Virus record (IMG/VR): IMGVR_UViG_3300048016_000100
Coordinates: 1 to 42,160 of that record
DNA: 42,160 nucleotides
Reading direction: 5' to 3' (one strand)
DNA from: a virus
In this document: in pieces, positions 4,466 to 42,025 of the stretch
Numbering within the stretch: position 1 is the first letter of the stretch
How the letters are laid out: each line of letters opens with the position of its first letter
The notes under the pieces: model-generated
Databases searched by the model: none
The model's input: only the letters and a program-made list of their open reading frames with translations
What the model was told of the DNA's origin: nothing
Position numbers and translations under genes: made by a program

Positions 4466-6235
4466 ATGAAGCTTACACGCGAGTCAGACATTTTAGATAT
4501 TAATAAGCGGGCTAAAATCATTCAAGAGATCGAAGGTCAAGAGAATAGAGCACGTAAGTACGAAGCGTATAAGCGCTATCAGTGCTATAAGGATATGACT
4601 AATCACTACGTACTGAGTTACTTACTTCGTCAGTTCGAGTCTAACACTGTAAACGAAATGCGTTACGCTCTAAGTAACATTAGCTTCGTACGTAAGGTCG
4701 TCGATAAGCTCGCTCGGGTTTACTCTAACGGCGTCGAGCGCATTATCTCAGACGACGAAGAGTCTACTAAAAAACTTAAAGAGATCGAAAAGCTTTTTAA
4801 ATTAACTGAGACAATGAAGACGACTAACCGCTTTCTGAAGCTTCAGAAAAACGTAGACGTTTTCGTAAAACCCTACCCTTGCTACGAGGGTACAAGTACA
4901 GTACCTAAGTATAAAATTAACCTAGAGACGCTACAGCCGTACCTCTATGACGCTATTGAGTCCGAGTACGACCGTACAAAGCCTATCGCTGTAGTCCTAT
5001 CAGATTACACACATCCGAGTACTGACCTAGCTGACCTCGATAGTCGTAACTCTAAAGTGCCACTCGTTACACCTTTAGGCTCAGTACGTGCCGACAATGT
5101 CGACCAGACTATCGCTAACAGCCCCGAAGACAAGGGCGCTAATCAGTCTAATAAGCAGTATGTTTTCTGGTCTAAGTCGTATCACTTCACGACTGACTCA
5201 GGCGGTAACATCTTACCTAACGACAAGGGCGAAAAGCGTAACGATAACGCTCTAAAGTCTTTTAATCATATTAATTTCGCTATCGACCAAGACGGCTCTT
5301 TCTGGGCTAAAGGCGGTAACGACTTAATCGACGGCGCGATCTTACTTAACGCGGTAATTACCCACACGACACACGTAGGAGTTACTCAAGGTTACGGTCA
5401 GTTTTATATGACGGGCGAAAACTTACCTCGCGTAATTAAAGTCGGCGTTACCAAGTCTATACTTGTGGAGTACAAAGGGTCTGAGCAGCAGGCCAAGCCC
5501 GAACTGGGCTTCTTATCGGCTAACCCACAGTTAGACGCTTTAAGATCACTTATCGAAATGTATATCGCTCTTTATCTTACGACTAATAACTTAAGTACGT
5601 CGGGCGTAAGTACGCAGCTTAACGGCTCTCAGAGTATCGCGTCAGGTATCGCGTTACTTTTAGATATGGCTGAGTCATTAGAGGACGTTCACGACCAAAG
5701 ACAAGTCTTTATCGACAATGAAGTACATATTGTGAAGGCCATTAACGAGACGCTAAAAGCCTATGGTAATAACCTAGCAGAGGAGTACAGAGACTTAGTT
5801 TTACCTGACGGCTTTGAAAAGAATTACGTCGTCAAGTTTAACGACGCCACTCCTATTATGACCGAAAAAGAAAAGCTCGAAGTATTAAAAATGCGTAAGG
5901 ACATGGGCCTAGATACTCGTATCGGCATGATTATGCGCGACGACCCAAGTCTTAACGAAGAGCAGGCAGCGGTAAAACTTTTAAAGCTTATCGAACAAGA
6001 GATCGAAGAGACTATGTTATCTATGAAGGCACGTACCGAGGCGGGCTTAGACGTTAATGTGGACGCTGACGGTAACCCTATCGACCCTAACGCCCCGCCT
6101 GAGTTAGACGCTGAAGGTAACCCTATCGACCCGAAAGCTGACCCTAATACGCCCTCGCCCGCGAAAGACCCTAAAGTAGCCCCTAAAGCTAAAAAGGCCC
6201 CTAAAAAAGTACCTAAAAAACCCGTTAAGGAGTAA
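4466..6235 (+). CDS. portal protein
   Basis: A 589-residue protein directly after terL. The N-terminal third is helical and ends in the portal-like VDKLARVYSNGVER. A central alpha/beta region and a long helical stem-like region follow. The last 60 residues are an Asp/Pro then Lys/Pro tail with a repeated NPIDP motif. As a dodecamer it would form the DNA channel and the docking site for TerL and the connectors. The call rests on gene order, length and N-terminal resemblance to SPP1 gp6-type portals. The repetitive tail is probably disordered. Confidence 0.85.
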   Translation: MKLTRESDILDINKRAKIIQEIEGQENRARKYEAYKRYQCYKDMTNHYVLSYLLRQFESNTVNEMRYALSNISFVRKVVDKLARVYSNGVERIISDDEESTKKLKEIEKLFKLTETMKTTNRFLKLQKNVDVFVKPYPCYEGTSTVPKYKINLETLQPYLYDAIESEYDRTKPIAVVLSDYTHPSTDLADLDSRNSKVPLVTPLGSVRADNVDQTIANSPEDKGANQSNKQYVFWSKSYHFTTDSGGNILPNDKGEKRNDNALKSFNHINFAIDQDGSFWAKGGNDLIDGAILLNAVITHTTHVGVTQGYGQFYMTGENLPRVIKVGVTKSILVEYKGSEQQAKPELGFLSANPQLDALRSLIEMYIALYLTTNNLSTSGVSTQLNGSQSIASGIALLLDMAESLEDVHDQRQVFIDNEVHIVKAINETLKAYGNNLAEEYRDLVLPDGFEKNYVVKFNDATPIMTEKEKLEVLKMRKDMGLDTRIGMIMRDDPSLNEEQAAVKLLKLIEQEIEETMLSMKARTEAGLDVNVDADGNPIDPNAPPELDAEGNPIDPKADPNTPSPAKDPKVAPKAKKAPKKVPKKPVKE

Positions 6236-11370: not shown

Positions 11371-13115
11371 TGAAGTACGTACTAACACTTTTACTCTTTT
11401 CGGGCGCCCTAATGGCTCAGATATCGAGCCCTAGCTTTGATGTGAATATATCAGGCGGCTCAATTTCTAACTCAAGCTTCGGTATCTCGGGCTCACTACC
11501 CGCAGGTACTAACGCTATAGGCGCGATCACTAATACAGTCTTTGGGGCGACCCAGTCGGGCGTATGGACGACGGGCCGTACGTGGACTCTAGCTTCGAGT
11601 ACTGACTCAACTTCGGCGGTAATTACGTCTATGCCTGCGGTATCGGGCACGGTTACGGCTAATATCGGCACCACTAACGGGCTCGCTTTAGATACCTCTT
11701 TAGGCACTTTAAACACGTCAGTAAACACATTACTAAAGCCCGCGTCTACTCTAGCTGCGGTTACTAATGTGGGGTCTGTTACGTCGATCACTAACCCCGT
11801 AGCCGTAACGGGGTCTTTCTGGCCTAGCGTCCAGACGGTAGACGGTACGGTAAACGTGAGCGGCGAGCTAATGTCGTCGTTTTCGCCCGACCCTTCTAAC
11901 GTAACGACGTCAACTTTTCAGCCTATTCAGTTCGACGCTCGCGGTAGGGTCGAGACTCACTCGACGGTACTTACCGACGAGGGCTCATTTCGCGATAGCT
12001 TCGCGGGCTCAAGCCTTGACGCTTCGTGGACGGCCTCGGGCGCTACTACGGTTACGGGGGGTAATTTAACTGTACCCTCGGGCACCGCCGCAGGCTCTCG
12101 CACAGTATCGCGGGTCGCAGATTACGGCCCTTTTATTATCTCTTCTAAGTTTTCTATATCTCAACGTATAGCTAATCAAACGGTATTCGTAGGCGTCAGA
12201 GATAATTTAACAGCGCCTACAATTAGAAGTGAGTTTAACTTCACGGGTACGGATAATACTCAGGTATCGTGTGTATCTCAGACAAGTGCCGACGCGGGTA
12301 ATACCCAGACTACGACTTTTAGTCTACCTAAAAACCAAACGACGGCGGCGTCTCTAGAGTACTCTATTGAAGTGACCGCGCAGCAGATAAACTTTTTAGT
12401 AGGCGGCGTACTCGTATGTACGCATAAAGACTCAGTGCAAGACCCGTACGGTAACTACGACTTCGTCTACGGCCTTACTAACGCGGCCACAGTGACTAAT
12501 ACCAATATAGTCGCGGCATGGGCTAACTTTTTTAATGTCAACAGGCTTGAAGTCTCTAACATCTTTAAAGGGCAGAAATTAGAAGTAGATAACGTACAGA
12601 TAGACGAAAGTACGCACCCGACATACCGAGCGGCCACTGTAGCTTTAAATACTGCTAATAACGCTACCGACATTTTTACTATTACGGGGTCTGCTACAAA
12701 GACTATACGCATACGTAAGATAGGTATCGAAGGTACTCAAACTACGGCGTCAGTAGCTAACGTGTTAGTAATGAAAAGGTCTACGGCTAACAGCGGGGGC
12801 ACTTCGTCTACGCTAACTAACGTACCTCTGGACTCAGACGACACAGCGGCTACAGCTACAGTAAGGGCGTACACAGCTAACCCTACTTTAGGTACTACGA
12901 TAGGTACTATTATCTCTAAGAAATTAATAGTTAATGTGACTAACGTAGGGTCGAGCGCGGTCGATAACGATACCGTTTTCTACTTAGGTAGCGAGCTATC
13001 TAAAGCAGTAGTTTTAAGGGGTACGAGCGAAGTTTTATCTATTAACTTAAACTCTACGACACTAGCAGGTAATTCGTTCAACATCTGGGTCGAGTGGACA
13101 GAAGAGGACTTATAA
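11370..13115 (+). CDS. large fibre-like virion protein with N-terminal signal peptide
   Basis: A 581-residue protein starting with a textbook Sec signal (MKYVLTLLLFSGALMA then Q, cleavage after Ala16). Residues about 20-165 are short Ser/Thr/Gly beta repeats (VSGTVTANIGTTNGLALD, GSVTSITNPVAVTGSF) typical of phage fibres. About 210-390 look like a concanavalin/LamG-type sandwich starting near GSFRDSFAGSSLDASW. A C-terminal beta domain follows. A signal peptide is unusual for a virion protein. It might be retained as a hydrophobic anchor, or the protein may be exported. The next gene also has a signal. Confidence 0.65.
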   Translation: MKYVLTLLLFSGALMAQISSPSFDVNISGGSISNSSFGISGSLPAGTNAIGAITNTVFGATQSGVWTTGRTWTLASSTDSTSAVITSMPAVSGTVTANIGTTNGLALDTSLGTLNTSVNTLLKPASTLAAVTNVGSVTSITNPVAVTGSFWPSVQTVDGTVNVSGELMSSFSPDPSNVTTSTFQPIQFDARGRVETHSTVLTDEGSFRDSFAGSSLDASWTASGATTVTGGNLTVPSGTAAGSRTVSRVADYGPFIISSKFSISQRIANQTVFVGVRDNLTAPTIRSEFNFTGTDNTQVSCVSQTSADAGNTQTTTFSLPKNQTTAASLEYSIEVTAQQINFLVGGVLVCTHKDSVQDPYGNYDFVYGLTNAATVTNTNIVAAWANFFNVNRLEVSNIFKGQKLEVDNVQIDESTHPTYRAATVALNTANNATDIFTITGSATKTIRIRKIGIEGTQTTASVANVLVMKRSTANSGGTSSTLTNVPLDSDDTAATATVRAYTANPTLGTTIGTIISKKLIVNVTNVGSSAVDNDTVFYLGSELSKAVVLRGTSEVLSINLNSTTLAGNSFNIWVEWTEEDL

Positions 13116-34697: not shown

Positions 34698-36347
34698 TTA
34701 CTCCTTTGTTAGTGCGGCGTTAATCGCCGCTTTGTTTTTAGTTTTCTTTTTTAGTACGCCTAGCATTAGATGTGCAAGACTATTTTTAAATATAAAGTAA
34801 TACGGCTCGACGACTCTCGTCTGACCTTTGCGTCGTAGCCTACGTACACACTGGTCGTTATTACCTTCGACCCAGTCAAACTCTACAAAGTAAGCTTTAC
34901 ACGACCGAGTCAAAGTGTATCCGAGACCGCCCGCCACAATATTAATGATAATGACGTCGCTATCGCCGCGCTGAAAGGCGTCTATGATAAGCTGCCTATC
35001 TTTCATTACTGTAGAGCCGTTAATAACTAAAGGGTTTAAGTCTTTTAAGCCCTCTCGTAGCTTATCTATAACAGACTTATGCCACGCAAAGACGACAACG
35101 GGCTCGCCGCCTGTACGTACAGTGTCTTTTAGTATCGGTATCGCCTCGTCTGCGGCCTGCTCGCCTGAGAGTTTTCTAAGCTCAGCTATGAAGTCTTTAG
35201 GGCTTACGGTCTTTAATGACGACTTAACTTTAACTCTCATATCGAGCGCCTCGGACTGACCGCGAGCGATACGCAGTATCTCTTCTAATGTGAAAGACTT
35301 TAAGAGCGTCTCTTCGGCTTCTTTCGTTTTCTTACCGAGCTTCGTCGGGTTTAAATAGACGATAGAGTCGTCAGCCTGCGGCGGTACGTCGCCCTCTCTA
35401 AGCTCTTGATGTATCATATAGCCCGACGTTTTAAGTTTAGATATAAGCTCGTCCTCGTTTTCACTACCGCCGTAAGAGATACCGTACTCGTCTTCGACGC
35501 TCTCACAGTATTTAAAGCCGTACTCGGGCTTACTCATAAAGCCGATAGCCTGCGGGGCGAAGGCGTTAACTATGGGCCATAACTCTACGGGCTTATAGTT
35601 AGGCATAGGCGTACCGCTCATTAAGCAGACCCTAGCCGCGTTACGCCCTATAAAGGTATGCTCTAAGCCCTTTCGAGCCGTTAAGCACTTCGTACGCGCT
35701 GACGTATCGTTTTTAAACCTATGCGCCTCGTCGACTATAACGAGACCTATATTGTACGTTGCGATAGTACCCATAAAGCCCGCTATCAGACTATCAGGTA
35801 TTATAATGACGTCGGCAGGTCGCAGTCGGTCTTTAGCTGAGCTTATCGTAAGTACGTCTAAAAACGCATGGCTCTTATCGTCTATCTCTTCGCGCCAAGT
35901 GTATTTAAGGGACGACGGGCAGATAACGACCGTAGTCTTACGCTCTTGTACGACGACGTACTCAAGGGCCATGCTCGCGGTAAAGGTCTTGCCTGTACCC
36001 GCTTCGTACCATAGATAGGTGTACTTATTAGTAAGTATGTGTAAGGCACCTCGTATCTGATAGTCTACGGGTACATACCGAGGCGAGTACTGAAGCTTAA
36101 AGCTTACGTCGTCGCCTTCGTCTTTATAGCCTAGCCATGATTTAAAACGGTCTTTTAGTTTATGAGTTAAGTTAGGCTCGCAGTACGTCAGTAACCTAAA
36201 GGCCACTTCGGGTCTGTTCGTATGCCATACAGGACGCTCGTCGCTCGCAGTTTTAGAGAACTGAAAGCCCGCCTTTTCGGGTATGTGTCTATCGTCGAAG
36301 CGAGTAACGCATATATAGCGCCCCGATACTTCGTATACGTATGGCAT
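34698..36347 (-). CDS. SNF2-family DNA helicase/translocase
   Basis: A 549-residue protein with SF2/SNF2 motifs: Walker A EAGTGKT (115-121), motif Ia VVICPSSL, DEAH box VIVDEAHR (206-209), SGTP (244-247), then a C-terminal helicase lobe with FAWHKSVIDKL, INGSTVM, and AGGLGYTLT followed by QCVRRLRRKGQ (motif VI). The N-terminal 90 residues have no recognised domain. Such SMARCAL1-like phage enzymes translocate on double-stranded DNA and remodel forks. It is the first gene of the leftward replication operon. Confidence 0.92.
   Translation of the reverse strand: MPYVYEVSGRYICVTRFDDRHIPEKAGFQFSKTASDERPVWHTNRPEVAFRLLTYCEPNLTHKLKDRFKSWLGYKDEGDDVSFKLQYSPRYVPVDYQIRGALHILTNKYTYLWYEAGTGKTFTASMALEYVVVQERKTTVVICPSSLKYTWREEIDDKSHAFLDVLTISSAKDRLRPADVIIIPDSLIAGFMGTIATYNIGLVIVDEAHRFKNDTSARTKCLTARKGLEHTFIGRNAARVCLMSGTPMPNYKPVELWPIVNAFAPQAIGFMSKPEYGFKYCESVEDEYGISYGGSENEDELISKLKTSGYMIHQELREGDVPPQADDSIVYLNPTKLGKKTKEAEETLLKSFTLEEILRIARGQSEALDMRVKVKSSLKTVSPKDFIAELRKLSGEQAADEAIPILKDTVRTGGEPVVVFAWHKSVIDKLREGLKDLNPLVINGSTVMKDRQLIIDAFQRGDSDVIIINIVAGGLGYTLTRSCKAYFVEFDWVEGNNDQCVRRLRRKGQTRVVEPYYFIFKNSLAHLMLGVLKKKTKNKAAINAALTKE
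34699..34730 (-). repeat. duplicated translation leader, copy 2, with hairpin
   Basis: On the minus strand a GCGGCG-ATTAA-CGCCGC hairpin, inside the 3' end of the helicase gene, is followed by GCACTAACAAAGGAGTAA, the ribosome site of the membrane-protein gene. It matches the leader at 34481-34510 over about 20 bases. Each copy has a different stem with conserved loop ATTAA or GATTAA, suggesting structure is maintained. Confidence 0.7.
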
Positions 36348-36459
36348 AACTTAACCGCCCCTTGTTAAATAAAATAGCTTGATACGGGTAAAGAAGTATT
36401 TTAGCGTAGCGACCTAGTCAACACAATTTTATTAAGATCAATTATATAGGGGGTATGAT
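36348..36459. promoter_or_regulatory. divergent promoter/operator region
   Basis: 112 bases between the leftward helicase operon and the rightward regulator gene. It is AT-rich. TTGATA occurs on the plus strand near 36378 and TTGACT on the minus strand near 36418, but no consensus -10 at proper spacing was found. AGGGGG (36448-36453) provides the ribosome site of the rightward gene. Position argues for divergent promoters controlled by the adjacent Cro-like protein. Exact sites are not identified. Confidence 0.45.
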
Positions 36460-36720
36460 ATGAAAGGCGTTACTTTAAAGCAATATATAGACACTAGAGG
36501 CGTAGGCGCGGTCGCAGCACTTTGCCGAGTTACTAACGCGACGGTTTACGGCTGGGCTCGCTCGAAGTTTGCGCCTAACCCTTTACACGCTCATTTAATG
36601 ATAGACGACTCTATGGGTATGCTATCTTATAACTCAATCTATACGACGTACATACTTGAAAACTTCGAGCTAGTCGTTAACCATAGAGCTAAGAACTTTA
36701 CGACCGACGTCGAAGGTTAG
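36460..36720 (+). CDS. Cro-like HTH transcription regulator
   Basis: An 86-residue protein. Residues 6-40 (LKQYIDTRG then GAVAALCRVTNATVYGWARS) form a helix-turn-helix of the Cro/YdaS type, followed by a helical, aromatic C-terminal part. It is divergently placed from the helicase operon and 3 bases ahead of the primase gene, so it probably regulates the shared intergenic promoters and itself. No partner CI-like repressor or integrase is visible, so lysogeny is not supported by this gene alone. Confidence 0.7.
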   Translation: MKGVTLKQYIDTRGVGAVAALCRVTNATVYGWARSKFAPNPLHAHLMIDDSMGMLSYNSIYTTYILENFELVVNHRAKNFTTDVEG

Positions 36721-36723
36721 TCT

Positions 36724-39021
36724 ATGGATAAGCTTAAATACTTGCGTAGGTTTTACGACCTAGGCTTTGCCGTGATATGGCTCTACCCACAGAGTAAGCG
36801 CCCTATCGGTCTCGATTGGCAGACGGGCGACCGTAAACACTTCGATACTTTAGAGAAGACTTATAAAGAAGCCTATAACGTGGGCGTGCGCCTTGGCTCA
36901 GCGTCTCAGTTAGACGACGATACGTACTTGTGCGTACTAGATTGTGACGTAAAGTCTAGCGAGCCCCACTACTTAAAAGAAATGGAATTAGCTCTTAAAG
37001 GCTTTGCGCCTTCTGTAGAGTACGCCCCTCGGGTCCTCTCGGGCCGTGGCGGCGGCTCTTGTCATGTCTACTTTAGGACGAAGACGCCGCAGCAGAGTTT
37101 TAAAGCCCTACGCTCTAACCATAAAACCAAAGTCCTCATGCCTTCGACGCCGCCGACTGACGCCGATAAGATATCAGGACTTACAGAGAATGAACTTAAC
37201 GACGGCTACCGTATGCGCTTAGCGTGGGAAATAGACGTGTACGGCGAGGGTAAGCAGGTCGTAATGCCGCCGTCCATACACCCCGATACGTACCGAGCTT
37301 ATGAGTGGGATACCGAGCCTAAAGAAATAGAGCAAATACCTTTAGTCGCTAACTTCGGACTCGAAGGCCGAAAGCTTTTAAAGACGACCGACGCCATAGT
37401 CGAAGTCGATTACGACTACACATTAGCAGATTGTTATACCCTCTCTAAAGAAAACTATCACTTAATCGTTTACGGCGAAAAGTTCGACGAAAGATATAAG
37501 TCGCGCTCTGAGGCTGTCATGGGTTGTCTGAGCCTATTAGCCTACGCAGGACTTAAAGACTCAGAGATATACGCGGTCATGACTGATAGTGATAACTTTA
37601 TCTCTGAGAAGCCCCTAGAGGCAGGTAAAGGCGATAGAGATAAGGCGGCTCAGTGGCTCTCTAAGCAGCTTGCCAAGGTACGCGCCGACATGAGTAACGC
37701 GAAAGACTTTAACGGTCTCGAAGCTGACGACGTCGACGTCTTACTCTCTGAAGCTGAAGCCTTAGAGCAAGAAGAGGACTTAGTCCCTTGGGTCTCAAAG
37801 CTCAAAGGTAAAGAGGGCGCCTATAAAAGTACGTCCTATAACTTAGCGTTAATACTTCGTCACGGCTTCAGAGAAGCGCGGCTTTTCGGCTACAACGCCT
37901 TTACTCAGAGTATGATCTACTTAGCTCAGCCGCCTTGGGGCGAGCCTTCAGACGTAGGCCGAGAGCTTGTCGACTCTGACGATACTCAGGCTAAGATATG
38001 GCTCTCAAGATATTATGGGGTAGAGACAAGTACGCACGCAGTTAATGAGATAATCACAGTATTAGCTAATGAGAATACCTTTCACCCTGTTAAGACTTAC
38101 TTAGACGCCCTTGAGTGGGACGGCGTCGAGCGCTTAGATACTTGGTTGAGTCAGTACTTAGAAGCTGAAGGCGACCCCGAGTACTTAGCAGACGTAGGTA
38201 GAAAGACTCTAGCCGCTGCGGTTAATCGGGTATACCGCGCAGGTTGTGAGTTTCACCATATGTTAATTTTAGAAGGTACTCAAGGCTGTGGTAAGAGTTC
38301 TACGGTTAAGATACTAGCGAGCCCCGCGTGGTTTTCGGACTCACTCGGCGACGTCACTAATAAAGATATTATCGAAGTCATGCGCGGTAAGTGGCTTATA
38401 GAGGTCGGCGAGCTTGCGGCTATGAACCGCTCTAGCGCTAACGATATGAAAGACTTTATAACTAAAAACGCAGACACACATAGAAAAGCCTTCGCTCGGC
38501 GTGCGGTCACTGTACCACGTCAGAGTATCTTAATCGGTACGACTAACGACCAAGAGTACTTAAAAGACCCTACAGGCGGGCGCCGCTTCTGGCCCGTACG
38601 TGTAGGTCAAGTCGACTTTAAAGCTTTAATTAGAGACCGAGACCAATTATGGGCTGAAGCTAAGATGTGCTATCAGTTAGGCGAGCTTCTGTACTTAGAT
38701 AACCCTAAAGTTAAAGCCATAGCCGAGAGCGAACAATACGACCGCGCCATAGTGGACGAGTTAGAGACTAAGATACTCAATATAATAGAAGACCAAGGCA
38801 TGACCGAAGAGGTCGACTTCGATAAGTTCTTTACTGAGCTATGCTTTAAACATAACCTTAAAGAGACTGACTACGTGCTACAGGTACGCTGTAAAAAGAT
38901 TTTTACTAAGCTACAGTATAAAAAGATACGGGTACGTAAAGAGGGCGTCAGGCGCTATAAATGGGTTAAATATAATACAGTACATAAGTCGTACAATGGG
39001 GTGCATGATGAATGGAGTTAA
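36724..39021 (+). CDS. bifunctional primase-helicase (PrimPol + VirE/VapE ATPase)
   Basis: A 765-residue protein. The N-terminal PrimPol domain has GVRLG, VLDCDVK (Asp73, Asp75) and LSGRGGGSCHVYF (His114) as catalytic landmarks. The C-terminal VirE-type P-loop ATPase has GTQGCGKSST (about 518-527), KWLIEVGELAAMNR (Walker B region) and TNDQEYLKDPTGGRRFW, an arginine-containing motif. A short basic C terminus follows. It would synthesise primers and unwind DNA at origin or fork. It acts with the polymerase and SSB of the leftward arm. Confidence 0.93.
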   Translation: MDKLKYLRRFYDLGFAVIWLYPQSKRPIGLDWQTGDRKHFDTLEKTYKEAYNVGVRLGSASQLDDDTYLCVLDCDVKSSEPHYLKEMELALKGFAPSVEYAPRVLSGRGGGSCHVYFRTKTPQQSFKALRSNHKTKVLMPSTPPTDADKISGLTENELNDGYRMRLAWEIDVYGEGKQVVMPPSIHPDTYRAYEWDTEPKEIEQIPLVANFGLEGRKLLKTTDAIVEVDYDYTLADCYTLSKENYHLIVYGEKFDERYKSRSEAVMGCLSLLAYAGLKDSEIYAVMTDSDNFISEKPLEAGKGDRDKAAQWLSKQLAKVRADMSNAKDFNGLEADDVDVLLSEAEALEQEEDLVPWVSKLKGKEGAYKSTSYNLALILRHGFREARLFGYNAFTQSMIYLAQPPWGEPSDVGRELVDSDDTQAKIWLSRYYGVETSTHAVNEIITVLANENTFHPVKTYLDALEWDGVERLDTWLSQYLEAEGDPEYLADVGRKTLAAAVNRVYRAGCEFHHMLILEGTQGCGKSSTVKILASPAWFSDSLGDVTNKDIIEVMRGKWLIEVGELAAMNRSSANDMKDFITKNADTHRKAFARRAVTVPRQSILIGTTNDQEYLKDPTGGRRFWPVRVGQVDFKALIRDRDQLWAEAKMCYQLGELLYLDNPKVKAIAESEQYDRAIVDELETKILNIIEDQGMTEEVDFDKFFTELCFKHNLKETDYVLQVRCKKIFTKLQYKKIRVRKEGVRRYKWVKYNTVHKSYNGVHDEWS

Positions 39022-39499: not shown

Positions 39500-39796
39500 T
39501 TACTTCGTTTTCTTTTTATAAGGGCCGCGCTTAGTCTTCGTAGCGGCCTTTACTTTCTTAGCTTTTACAGTCTTAACCGCTAACCTCTTAGCCGCCACTT
39601 TAACGATTAAAGGCTTTGCGGCAAGCTTCGGACGCTCGGCTTTCTTAGGCGGGACCGCTAGGGCCACGCCTGTATACTTAGATAACTTCATATTGATAAT
39701 CGTCTGATAACCCATGCCTGTAGCTTTCGCTTCGGCTTTAATGGCGTTTAAGACTTTAGTATCGACTCTCATAGTAACGGGGCTCGTAGTAATCAT
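39500..39796 (-). CDS. ribbon-helix-helix protein with lysine-rich tail
   Basis: A 98-residue protein with AAAAGGAG upstream. Residues 5-45 (SPVTMRVDTKVLNAIKAEAK then TGMGYQTIINMKLSKY) read as a ribbon-helix-helix DNA-binding fold of BrnA/Arc type. The last 45 residues are a Lys/Ala/Val tail ending GPYKKKTK, like histone H1. Specific N-terminal binding plus a nonspecific basic tail suggests a regulator that also compacts DNA. It is a leftward gene near the mirrored array, so may bind there. Confidence 0.65.
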   Translation of the reverse strand: MITTSPVTMRVDTKVLNAIKAEAKATGMGYQTIINMKLSKYTGVALAVPPKKAERPKLAAKPLIVKVAAKRLAVKTVKAKKVKAATKTKRGPYKKKTK

Positions 39797-39834
39797 GTAT
39801 GTACTCCTTTTAGGTTTAAGTTATAGATAGGTAC

Positions 39835-40290
39835 TTACTTAGGGGTCAAGGCTTTTTTAAGCTTAGAGAGCCCCGAGGGGCCGAGTTTTCGTATCTCGCG
39901 CCGCCTACAGCCGCAGGACTTTGTACGCCCGAGACGAAGTAGAGTACCTGCGTACAGACATTGATTACCACATTCACACTGACATAAGAAGACGGCTTCT
40001 CTAGTGCCTGCGCCGTTACGTCGGTATCTGACGCCCGAAAAGCTTAACACAGTAAGCTTACCGTACCGATTACCTACCTCGTTTTTAAAGGTCGGCGCCC
40101 GCTCTCGTATGTTAAGAGAGGGGTCGGCTTTCTTTAAGGCATTGTAGACGCCTTGCCTGTTCATAGAAAGATGGGCGGCGATAGTGGTCGGCTTATAGCC
40201 TTTAAGGTAGAGACTATAAATGTGAGCTATTAAGGTCGGTGTAAGCCTGACTCGGACGGTATTAGTGGGCGGTTTAAATTGTGCGTACAT
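39835..40290 (-). CDS. HTH plus zinc-ribbon protein (HNH-accessory-like)
   Basis: A 151-residue protein. The N-terminal HTH near residues 20-50 (AHIYSLYLKGYKPTTIAAHL then SMNRQGVYNAL) precedes a zinc-ribbon-like domain (YGKLTVLSF, FLCQCECGNQ, then TKSCGC) found in phage homing-endonuclease and DNA-binding proteins. No HNH core is seen. It borders the mirrored CTGTCC array, so it may recognise it. No Shine-Dalgarno is visible at its ATG; TGATATATT (extended -10-like) lies about a dozen bases upstream, so translation may be leaderless. Confidence 0.65.
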   Translation of the reverse strand: MYAQFKPPTNTVRVRLTPTLIAHIYSLYLKGYKPTTIAAHLSMNRQGVYNALKKADPSLNIRERAPTFKNEVGNRYGKLTVLSFSGVRYRRNGAGTREAVFLCQCECGNQCLYAGTLLRLGRTKSCGCRRREIRKLGPSGLSKLKKALTPK

Positions 40291-40677
40291 ACGTGAGAGA
40301 ATATATCAAGGCTGCTTAAAAGTAAAGCTAAAAGCCCTTGGGGCCGAAATGAGCGGTTTTAGTGCTGTCCTAGGTCTGTCCCAAGAGTGCCCAAGTGAAA
40401 ACGCGTACGGGCGTGGCAGCGATTACTTAAAGATATCACATACTTATTATATAATGCCTATCTGTCCTATGTAATATTATATACTTTACCTATTAGTATA
40501 TTTAAAAGCTATATATACGTTTATAGTTTACCCCATATATGCCGTATACATATATAGCCGACATAGGTATTTTACATGGGACAGCGGGACCGCGCCGTAA
40601 TTATGTGTAATCATTAGAGAATACTTAAAACGTCACTTGGGACAGCTTGGGCCGCTGCCTAGGCCACGGGACAGAGC
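40291..40677. other. gene-poor region with mirrored CTGTCC array (origin/operator candidate)
   Basis: 387 bases without a supported gene. CTGTCC at 40365, 40376 and 40462 faces right. The reverse complement GGACAG, read leftward from 40584, 40645 and 40674, faces left. Pairs match in mirror order: CTGTCCTATGTAA with CTGTCCCATGTAA, CTGTCCCAAG with CTGTCCCAAGTG, and outer CTGTCCTAGG with CTGTCCCGTGG. Extra GCCCAAGTG and CTTGGGC elements mirror too. The core (about 40475-40572) is AT-rich with ATATAT and GTATAC. This resembles replication origins with paired initiator sites, or a divergent operator. Confidence 0.6.
40427..40482. promoter_or_regulatory. facing candidate -10 boxes around an operator
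   Basis: TATAAT at 40450-40455 (plus strand) and TATAAT at 40481-40476 (minus strand) face each other, with the CTGTCCTATGTAA site between them at the expected start points. The -35 elements are weak (TTAAAG at 40427 for the rightward one). A protein at the site could block both. Promoter activity is inferred from sequence only. Confidence 0.35.
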
Positions 40678-40932
40678 CTAAAAAAACTTAAATTGTCTTA
40701 AATTAGCCCTTTTTACGGTACGTACGCAGTACTTTTCGGCTCTTTTAGTGTCTACGTACATACCGAAGTTAGGCCCCGAAGCCCGTTTAGGGTCGCCGCA
40801 GTACTTTTTAGGCTTGATTAGATATAAGTATGTGGGGTACTGATTAGGTAAAGGGGTAATTATGTCGTGTAAGTGTAAGTACTGCGTTATAGCGAAGTCG
40901 GGGCTATACGCTATTAGCTTCAGTGGTAACAT
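40678..40932 (-). CDS. hypothetical protein, 5' end overlapping the HNH gene
   Basis: An 84-residue frame. Residues 27-84 have phage-typical codons and a plausible sequence (YLYLIKPKKYCGDPKRASGP then FGMYVDTKRAEKYCVRTVKR), but the first 24 residues overlap the start of the rightward HNH gene and use less typical codons. No good ribosome site was found. It may be a real gene with an unseen start, or the remnant of one whose 5' end was replaced when the HNH gene arrived. Confidence 0.4.
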   Translation of the reverse strand: MLPLKLIAYSPDFAITQYLHLHDIITPLPNQYPTYLYLIKPKKYCGDPKRASGPNFGMYVDTKRAEKYCVRTVKRANLRQFKFF

Positions 40933-41368
40933 AATGTCGAATAGATACGGCGGTAAGTCTATGAAGCTTTACAAGAGGTCTAACGGCTACCTAAAAGTTA
41001 ACTGCTACGTAGGCGGCGTCGTCTATACCGTCTTCGCGCACCGATTAGTTTATACATACTTAAAAGGCTGCGCGGGCGATAAGGTTATTAATCATATAGA
41101 CTTTAATAAAGCTAATAACCGTATAGGTAATCTAGAGGCCGTAACTCATTTAGAAAACGTACGGCACGCTGCTAAGGCAGGTAAGCTAGACGGCTCTAAG
41201 AACGTAGGCGAAAACAATATAAAAGCTAAGCTTACGGTTGACCAAGTTAGAGATATACGTAGTATGTACGGCGAGGGCGTACCTCGGCGGTCACTTCGAG
41301 AAATGTTTAACGTCGGTCAGACGTGTATAGCCGACATAGTAACTAATAAGAAATGGAGTAATATATGA
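40862..41368 (+). CDS. HNH homing endonuclease-like protein
   Basis: A 168-residue protein with AAGGGG before ATG. HNH_3-type core: FAHRLVY (His60), VINHIDFNKANNRIGNLE (His78, Asp80, Asn85, Asn86, Asn90) and HLENVRHAAKAG (Asn99, His102). The C terminus (KLTVDQVRDIRSMYGEGVP then SLREMFNVGQTCIADIV) is an HTH/NUMOD-type DNA-binding repeat. Members are selfish free-standing endonucleases. Two Cys-rich residue pairs at the N terminus may bind zinc. It lies next to the mirrored array. Confidence 0.85.
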   Translation: MSCKCKYCVIAKSGLYAISFSGNIMSNRYGGKSMKLYKRSNGYLKVNCYVGGVVYTVFAHRLVYTYLKGCAGDKVINHIDFNKANNRIGNLEAVTHLENVRHAAKAGKLDGSKNVGENNIKAKLTVDQVRDIRSMYGEGVPRRSLREMFNVGQTCIADIVTNKKWSNI

Positions 41369-41772
41369 TTAACGTCAGACGAAAAGGCTTAGCTTTCGAG
41401 CGCTACATAGCAGCCGCTATGCGTATGATAGGCTACAGTAAAGCCCATAGACAACTTGAGTTTCAAATAAATAACGCTTTAGGTATCGACCTCGCCGAGA
41501 CGGGGCGGTACAAGATACAATGTAAAAAGACTAAGAGGTATGTACCTATGAATACGATTAACGAGGTTAAGGCTAAGCCTAACGAGATACCTGTACTTAT
41601 AGCCGCAGGCGACGGCGAGCCGCCACTGGTTACTATGCACCTCTCACACTGGTTACACCTCGTAAGTAATGACCTTTATAATAACGATACAATTATTAGA
41701 AGCGTAGACTATATAGAGACGGCTCTATATGACCTTAAAAACGGGGGCAAGTGTGGCAAAGAAGAGAGTTAA
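41365..41772 (+). CDS. PD-(D/E)XK Holliday-resolvase-like nuclease
   Basis: A 135-residue protein overlapping the HNH stop by 4 bases (ATGA). RRKGLAFERYIAAAM (Glu12), GIDLAET (Asp42) and YKIQCKKTKR (Gln52, Lys54) give the E-D-QxK pattern of archaeal-Hjc-like or phage resolvase nucleases. The C-terminal half is helical with VTMHLSHW. It may resolve branched replication intermediates before packaging. Confidence 0.75.
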   Translation: MINVRRKGLAFERYIAAAMRMIGYSKAHRQLEFQINNALGIDLAETGRYKIQCKKTKRYVPMNTINEVKAKPNEIPVLIAAGDGEPPLVTMHLSHWLHLVSNDLYNNDTIIRSVDYIETALYDLKNGGKCGKEES

Positions 41773-42025
41773 GGCCCGCGTACTTACGTTCACTGAGACT
41801 ATAGTAAAAACTTACGAGTGGTCTACAGACGCTGAGACCGAAGACGTAGCCCTAGACGAGTATGTGAATAGCTCGGGCGTATGGCCTAAGCGGTTATCTG
41901 TAGAGACGTCCCGCGAAATTGTAAGCTTTGAGACCCGTAAAAAAGTATGTTGGGACGTCGTCGAACAAGAGTCAGTACGGGGTATCGTTAGAGACGGTCG
42001 CATAGTGGACCCGAGTGCTGTATGA
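41753..42025 (+). CDS. hypothetical protein
   Basis: About 90 residues from GTG 41753, with GGGGG five bases upstream; an ATG at 41729 is in frame but lies further into the previous gene. Basic N terminus (AKKRVKARVLTF), acidic middle (STDAETEDVALDEY) and beta C-terminal part. No motif recognised. Its stop overlaps the next start as ATGA. Function unknown. Confidence 0.6.
   Translation: MAKKRVKARVLTFTETIVKTYEWSTDAETEDVALDEYVNSSGVWPKRLSVETSREIVSFETRKKVCWDVVEQESVRGIVRDGRIVDPSAV

Follow-up and report, generated by a model that had tools for sequence, protein, structure and literature searches.

Repeats and genes at the locus

The window analysed here is a 42,160-nt stretch of viral DNA, taken whole. 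Its genes, which include a terminase gene and a DNA replication module, look like those of a tailed phage. The hexamer CTGTCC occurs seven times in the window, with six copies within 40365-40674 and the other one at 13096. The six clustered sites, here called iterons and identified by a CTGTCC census and a weight matrix, are ordered as three rightward (+) and then three leftward (-) copies flanking an AT-rich core. The features of the locus are as follows:

36724-39021, + strand: fused PrimPol/VapE-type helicase with a C-terminal winged helix, the presumed iteron-binding initiator
39500-39796, - strand: ribbon-helix-helix (RHH, CopG-like) protein, a neighbour, outside the putative origin in our reading
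39835-40290, - strand: HTH/zinc-ribbon-like protein, a neighbour, likewise read as outside the putative origin
40365-40370, + strand: iteron L1, outer left, CTGTCCTAGG
40376-40381, + strand: iteron L2, middle left, CTGTCCCAAG
40420-40446, - strand: weaker left-side mirror copy of the 40602-40621 block, TAAGTATGTGATATCTTTAAGTAATCG on the minus strand
40462-40467, + strand: iteron L3, inner left, CTGTCCTATGTAA
40468-40578, no strand: AT-rich core (75% AT), the presumed DNA unwinding element
40579-40584, - strand: iteron R3, inner right, CTGTCCCATGTAA
40602-40621, + strand: TATGTGTAATCATTAGAGAA block between the inner and middle right sites, conserved in the relative L003
40640-40645, - strand: iteron R2, middle right, CTGTCCCAAGTG
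40669-40674, - strand: iteron R1, outer right, CTGTCCCGTGG
40862-41368, + strand: HNH endonuclease, read as outside the putative origin; missing at this place in L003

The six sites, with their positions and strands, and the flanking genes (leftward RHH and HTH/zinc, rightward HNH) had been recognised in the initial annotation, and all are present. The nested pairing that it described was also recovered, with 12/13 identical positions in the inner pair, 10/10 in the middle pair and a weak match in the outer pair. Abundance of CTGTCC elsewhere had been named as grounds for doubt, and the copy at 13096 is the only one outside the array. The total of seven does not exceed the chance expectation of nine, so the remarkable aspect is the clustering and order of the sites. 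CTGTCC is the sole 6-mer in the window with a run of three forward and three reverse copies inside 350 nt. Among 200 locally block-shuffled windows, 25 contained such a run, nearly all of them AAAAAA, and only one match had at least three G/C in the 6-mer. A weight matrix built from the array sites ranked these six at the top across the whole window, the same six sites having served to train it.

The inner hexamers enclose a core of 111 nt, or of 97 nt without the 13-nt extended sites, the latter being the AT-rich core reported initially. The core has an AT content of 75%, compared with 54% window-wide. No other 111-nt stretch of the window is as AT-rich as the one starting at 40420, which overlaps the core. 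A cumulative GC-skew minimum, suggested earlier as a sign of an origin, was not found at the array. The minimum falls at about 35.5-36 kb, where gene direction switches, and its absence from the array counts against an origin.

Conservation of the array in a diverged relative

Searches with the primase and neighbouring genes retrieved a near-identical contig (L004/L005/L023) and a diverged relative, L003, whose primase is 77-78% identical to that of the window. No match was obtained in a nucleotide search of 39800-41800 against phage records, and no relative in a genome-collection scan with the window's primase. L003 is the sole diverged relative found with the same motif, which we count against the origin reading. 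The L003 contig (40,768 nt) runs on at its tail into the first primase codons and is thus a complete circular map. The gene order in L003 suggests that the ends of the window (1 and 42160) join, and the window contig is therefore probably a circularly permuted complete genome.

The motif CTGKCCCWAG occurs exactly six times in L003, all at the homologous place (4428+, 4438+, 4514+, 4655-, 4715- and 4727-). L003 therefore keeps the three-against-three sites around an AT-rich core, as anticipated if the array is conserved. Two of its sites carry a T-to-G change, with the rest of each site unchanged. A single dyad centre at 4587-4589 is common to the three main mirror arms and the inner site pair. 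The surroundings of the two arrays are only partly alignable, indicating that the sites, their order and the AT-rich core are kept while the spacers drift. That the array arose by chance is excluded by this conservation together with the shuffled-window test. A folded RNA or DNA hairpin element can be envisaged, as the inverted repeats could pair in principle; in the window the arms are separated by one to three hundred bases and unevenly spaced, making such long-range pairing unlikely. Taken together, chance or a hairpin has a negligible probability of explaining the array.

Additional repeated elements were noticed in both genomes. The block TATGTGTAATCATTARAGAA (window 40602-40621; L003 4668-4691) belongs to the most strongly conserved parts of this region, and a weaker mirrored version of it lies at 4484-4507 in L003; the L003 counterpart of the 40420-40446 mirror copy is the inverted-repeat pair I4. 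The element GTATGTACGC is found in L003 at 4350, 4394, 4781 and 4816, which are the four copies in 15.3 kb and all flank the array. Their order, two forward then two reverse, makes them a further mirrored element on the outside of the array. GTATGTACGC is unmirrored in the window (12414, 32440 and 40282).

The array neighbours kept in L003 are the leftward HTH/zinc gene and a rightward RusA-like gene. The RHH gene is also retained left of the array, at a greater distance. The HNH gene is not kept beside the L003 array, and it was on this ground ruled out as an origin part. The HTH/zinc protein was also considered as the partner of the array and was rejected, since the loci found through it show no comparable array. 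The RHH, HTH/zinc and HNH genes are thus probably not parts of the origin. The array begins 1344 nt (1.3 kb) past the stop of the helicase gene in the window and lies 2.4 kb from that gene in L003, where two more genes stand between them, one phosphoesterase-like and one HNH-like according to translations read by eye.

The PrimPol-VapE helicase and convergent arrays in other phages

The gene at 36724-39021 encodes a PrimPol domain (PF09250) and a VapE-like helicase domain (PF05272, E 1e-72). The PF05272 match of 244 bits, compared with a curated cut-off of 25, places the protein in the VapE-like helicase family. ATPases of this VirE family (PF05272) fused to primases have been predicted as replicative helicases of mobile elements (PMC5862659). 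The closest solved relative is 7PDS, with an E-value of 1e-47 that improves to 2.5e-103 with a 13-sequence profile. The entry is titled 'The structure of PriRep1 with dsDNA', and we take it on that basis to be the SaPI1 replication helicase.

An AlphaFold model covering residues 325-765 has a mean pLDDT of 68.8, at which its details are untrustworthy. The model matches 7PDS with Z 27.3 and rmsd 10.8 over 378 residues (model residues 30-428), the large rmsd being as expected if domains are displaced. The next structural matches are far below this, namely NrS-1 (Z 12.3) and the SaPI5 helicase (Z 10.7); papillomavirus E1 chains match at Z about 8, their AAA+ fold being related. The 7PDS match takes in the C-terminal winged-helix domain, and the last domain of the model, at about residues 677-765 of the protein, has the helix-helix-helix-strand-strand order of a winged helix with a local pLDDT of about 80. 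Judged by homology and predicted fold, the genome that carries the array also encodes a cognate Rep/Pri-Rep-type helicase with a C-terminal DNA-binding domain. PrimPol-VapE is the only replicative helicase/initiator recognised among the window genes. Other replication genes encode a family-A polymerase, an Enc34-type ssDNA-binding protein, a DUF2800/PD-(D/E)XK protein and a SNF2-like helicase.

An array that serves as the origin of a VapE helicase should have counterparts in other VapE phages, as convergent arrays of their own iterons near the helicase gene. VapE phages were sampled along the hit list, and ±7 kb around each VapE stop was scanned, blind to location, for exact 6- and 7-mers in convergent order. 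Nine diverse VapE proteins proved too divergent for their alignment to be used in scanning. The detector tolerates some discordant sites, as requiring perfect mirror order missed known arrays. Arrays scoring at least 9, a score reached by 1.35% of shuffled loci, were called strong. In the first set, on which both the threshold and the zone were chosen, 11 strong arrays were found in the 27.7 kb at -50 to +700 nt of the VapE stop, compared with four in 333 kb elsewhere, the window's own at +1344 among them. A second set of loci fetched later gave six arrays in 10.4 kb versus one in 125 kb; it is made up of Lederberg and RcAqua relatives and is therefore not fully independent. After dereplication of the VapE proteins at 70%, 10 of 15 strong arrays fell in 8% of the DNA (binomial P 2e-8), and dereplication at 50% identity gave P 6e-7. 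The exact-word scan gave no strong array in over half of the VapE loci left after dereplication, which counts against the origin reading; some of these loci show degenerate arrays by eye (for example, L145). In 15 of the 16 arrays examined there is a 40-nt stretch whose AT content reaches at least the 98.8th percentile of its locus; the exception is Jacinda, where this stretch is just beside the array.

The iteron words differ among phages, as in the following examples:

Pseudomonas phage LPPA36: TGTCCCA, a sequence common to the window array
Marinobacter phage PS3: TCACCCC
Corynebacterium phage Lederberg: GTTGTCC
Rhodobacter phage RcAqua: TCACCCT
Paenibacillus phage Jacinda: TGCAACA
Streptococcal satellite Javan748: GTGTAG
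APSE-7: TACCAAC

Javan562 also has a convergent array 3' of VapE, and one of the two streptococcal satellite records scanned was positive (Javan748) and the other negative (Javan162). The array of one further locus (L122) lies at about +1.8 kb. No strong convergent array was detected by the scan in four Bacteroidales phages with VapE (L029, L037, L125 and L126), which may have more degenerate sites or another origin type.

Several individual loci are described here in their own right. In the APSE-7 record, a putative origin is marked upstream of the VirE gene (stop 4550), but the 3' end of the gene carries a TACCAAC array of four against three sites, which may be the real origin there. Glutamicibacter phage Montesquieu has a very strong convergent array at 238-626, with AGCATG four against five, about 5 kb upstream of the primase stop and adjoining VRR-NUC and HNH genes. 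In Burkholderia phage Bcep1, a TCTGTCA array with an AT-rich core (about 1675-1892) precedes the VapE-type primase gene, lying in the gap upstream and not 3' of it.

The initial annotation had left open whether the array is an origin, a two-promoter operator or a partition-like site, and had pointed to the RHH and HTH/zinc proteins. An operator would have the RHH or HTH/zinc protein repress leftward and rightward early transcription through the mirrored sites. The array is indeed bordered by the leftward HTH/zinc gene on one side and by rightward genes on the other, both the RHH and the HTH/zinc gene stand to its left in L003 too, and a sigma-70-like match on the minus strand (40475-40446) overlaps iteron L3. 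This is the only match of the promoter scan and is at chance level (1.6 expected). The array sites recur nowhere else in the genome despite another divergent gene start at 36347-36460, the loci of HTH/zinc relatives have no such array, and equivalent arrays are present in VapE phages that have no RHH or HTH/zinc gene annotated next to the array. An operator is thus improbable, and the emphasis on these two proteins is not upheld. Still less probable is a partition (centromere-like) site bound by the RHH protein in the manner of ParG or Omega proteins. An RHH gene does lie close by, and short repeats are among the targets that RHH proteins can bind; a ParA-type ATPase was not recognised among the ORFs profiled or read, which are a part of the window's ORFs, and the arrays of VapE phages adjoin the helicase gene instead. 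Of the three earlier suggestions, the origin is the one favoured by helicase homology, conservation and VapE association.

A dual use, in which the iterons of an origin also let the helicase or a neighbouring protein control the leftward promoter, is possible and somewhat doubtful. It is compatible with the origin reading, and our confidences in the two therefore overlap. The overlap of L3 with the only promoter-like match and the extra mirrored elements that flank the array (GTATGTACGC, four times in L003, and the TATGTGTAATCATTA block) are in its favour, against which stand the chance level of that match and the unmirrored outer GTATGTACGC elements of the window.

Comparison with known origins and proposed mechanism

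In lambda-type origins, the O iterons adjoin an AT-rich stretch. These iterons are direct repeats bound by a separate O protein; the window sites are mirrored, and no O-like protein was found among the proteins profiled, so the array does not conform to this type. The initial annotation could name no standard phage origin of this kind, yet the layout is that of SaPI/PICI origins, which always have two iteron sets around an AT-rich region (PMC6092414); the comparison is one of layout, as given in the papers. The SaPI Rep recognises its origin iterons via the C-terminal domain, apparently as two hexamers, and the origin lies directly downstream of rep (PMC7581432). The window helicase is homologous, being VapE-type with a C-terminal DNA-binding domain, and such helicases are in places primase-fused (PMC6092414; PMC7581432). 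Unlike SaPI/PICI origins, the array resides in a 42-kb phage rather than a satellite island, keeps a strict three-against-three order, and lies 1.3-2.4 kb downstream of the helicase gene (window and L003) with small genes between. It is on the 3' side without being adjacent, and we therefore regard it as a variant, not a member, of the SaPI/PICI origin. As SaPI/PICI origins are immediately 3' of the gene, this distance counts against the origin reading; insertion of small genes may have displaced the array.

The arrays of the other VapE phages are likewise convergent short repeats near the VapE gene, mostly around or beside an AT-rich stretch; they differ from the window array in lying within about 700 nt of the VapE stop, in mostly other iteron sequences and in more irregular spacing. 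The putative origin of SCCmec Cch2 also has short repeats downstream of the helicase gene, bound by the self-loading initiator helicase which that gene encodes (PMC7581432); it differs in having a single set of three direct repeats and a helicase from the SaPI5/D5 branch. SV40 T antigen and papillomavirus E1 are also hexameric initiator helicases with short sites beside an AT-rich region, a likeness of layout; their DNA-binding domain is N-terminal (PMC7581432).

From sequence comparison and homology, we propose with a probability of roughly 0.84 that the array is a phage replication origin of the SaPI/PICI type, with helicase-bound iterons and a double-hexamer mechanism. The reading is based on the uniqueness and mirrored order of the sites, the three-against-three arrangement in L003, the AT-rich core, the homology of the helicase to the SaPI1 replication helicase and the enrichment of arrays 3' of VapE genes. 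The decisive partner is probably the PrimPol-VapE helicase encoded 1.3 kb upstream, not the RHH, HTH/zinc or HNH protein. In the proposed mechanism, the C-terminal winged helix of PrimPol-VapE would bind the CTG(T/G)CCC(A/T)AG iterons, and the two opposed sets of three sites would position two helicase assemblies face to face on either side of the AT-rich core. Melting of this core would follow, with one hexamer loaded per strand. Replication would be bidirectional, with the fused primase domain priming and the family-A polymerase extending.

Convergent-iteron origins may well be general to VapE-helicase phages across bacterial phyla, with each winged helix reading its own iteron of 6-10 nt; we lean towards this view with modest confidence. 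No description of such origins as general for VapE phages was found in the literature searched, coverage of which was incomplete. The shared layout appears common to the window phage and many other VapE-helicase phages. An origin type supposedly specific to PICIs would thereby be extended to phages, linking phage and satellite replication, and the mechanism would be an ordinary one if the PICI model holds. The finding is relevant to the question of whether a satellite could compete for a phage's origin, or a phage for a satellite's. It would also supply a large set of natural helicase/iteron pairs and make origins predictable in many phages without a mapped origin. If the general type is true, sequence could be used to predict origins, and the many natural pairs could yield a protein-DNA recognition code.
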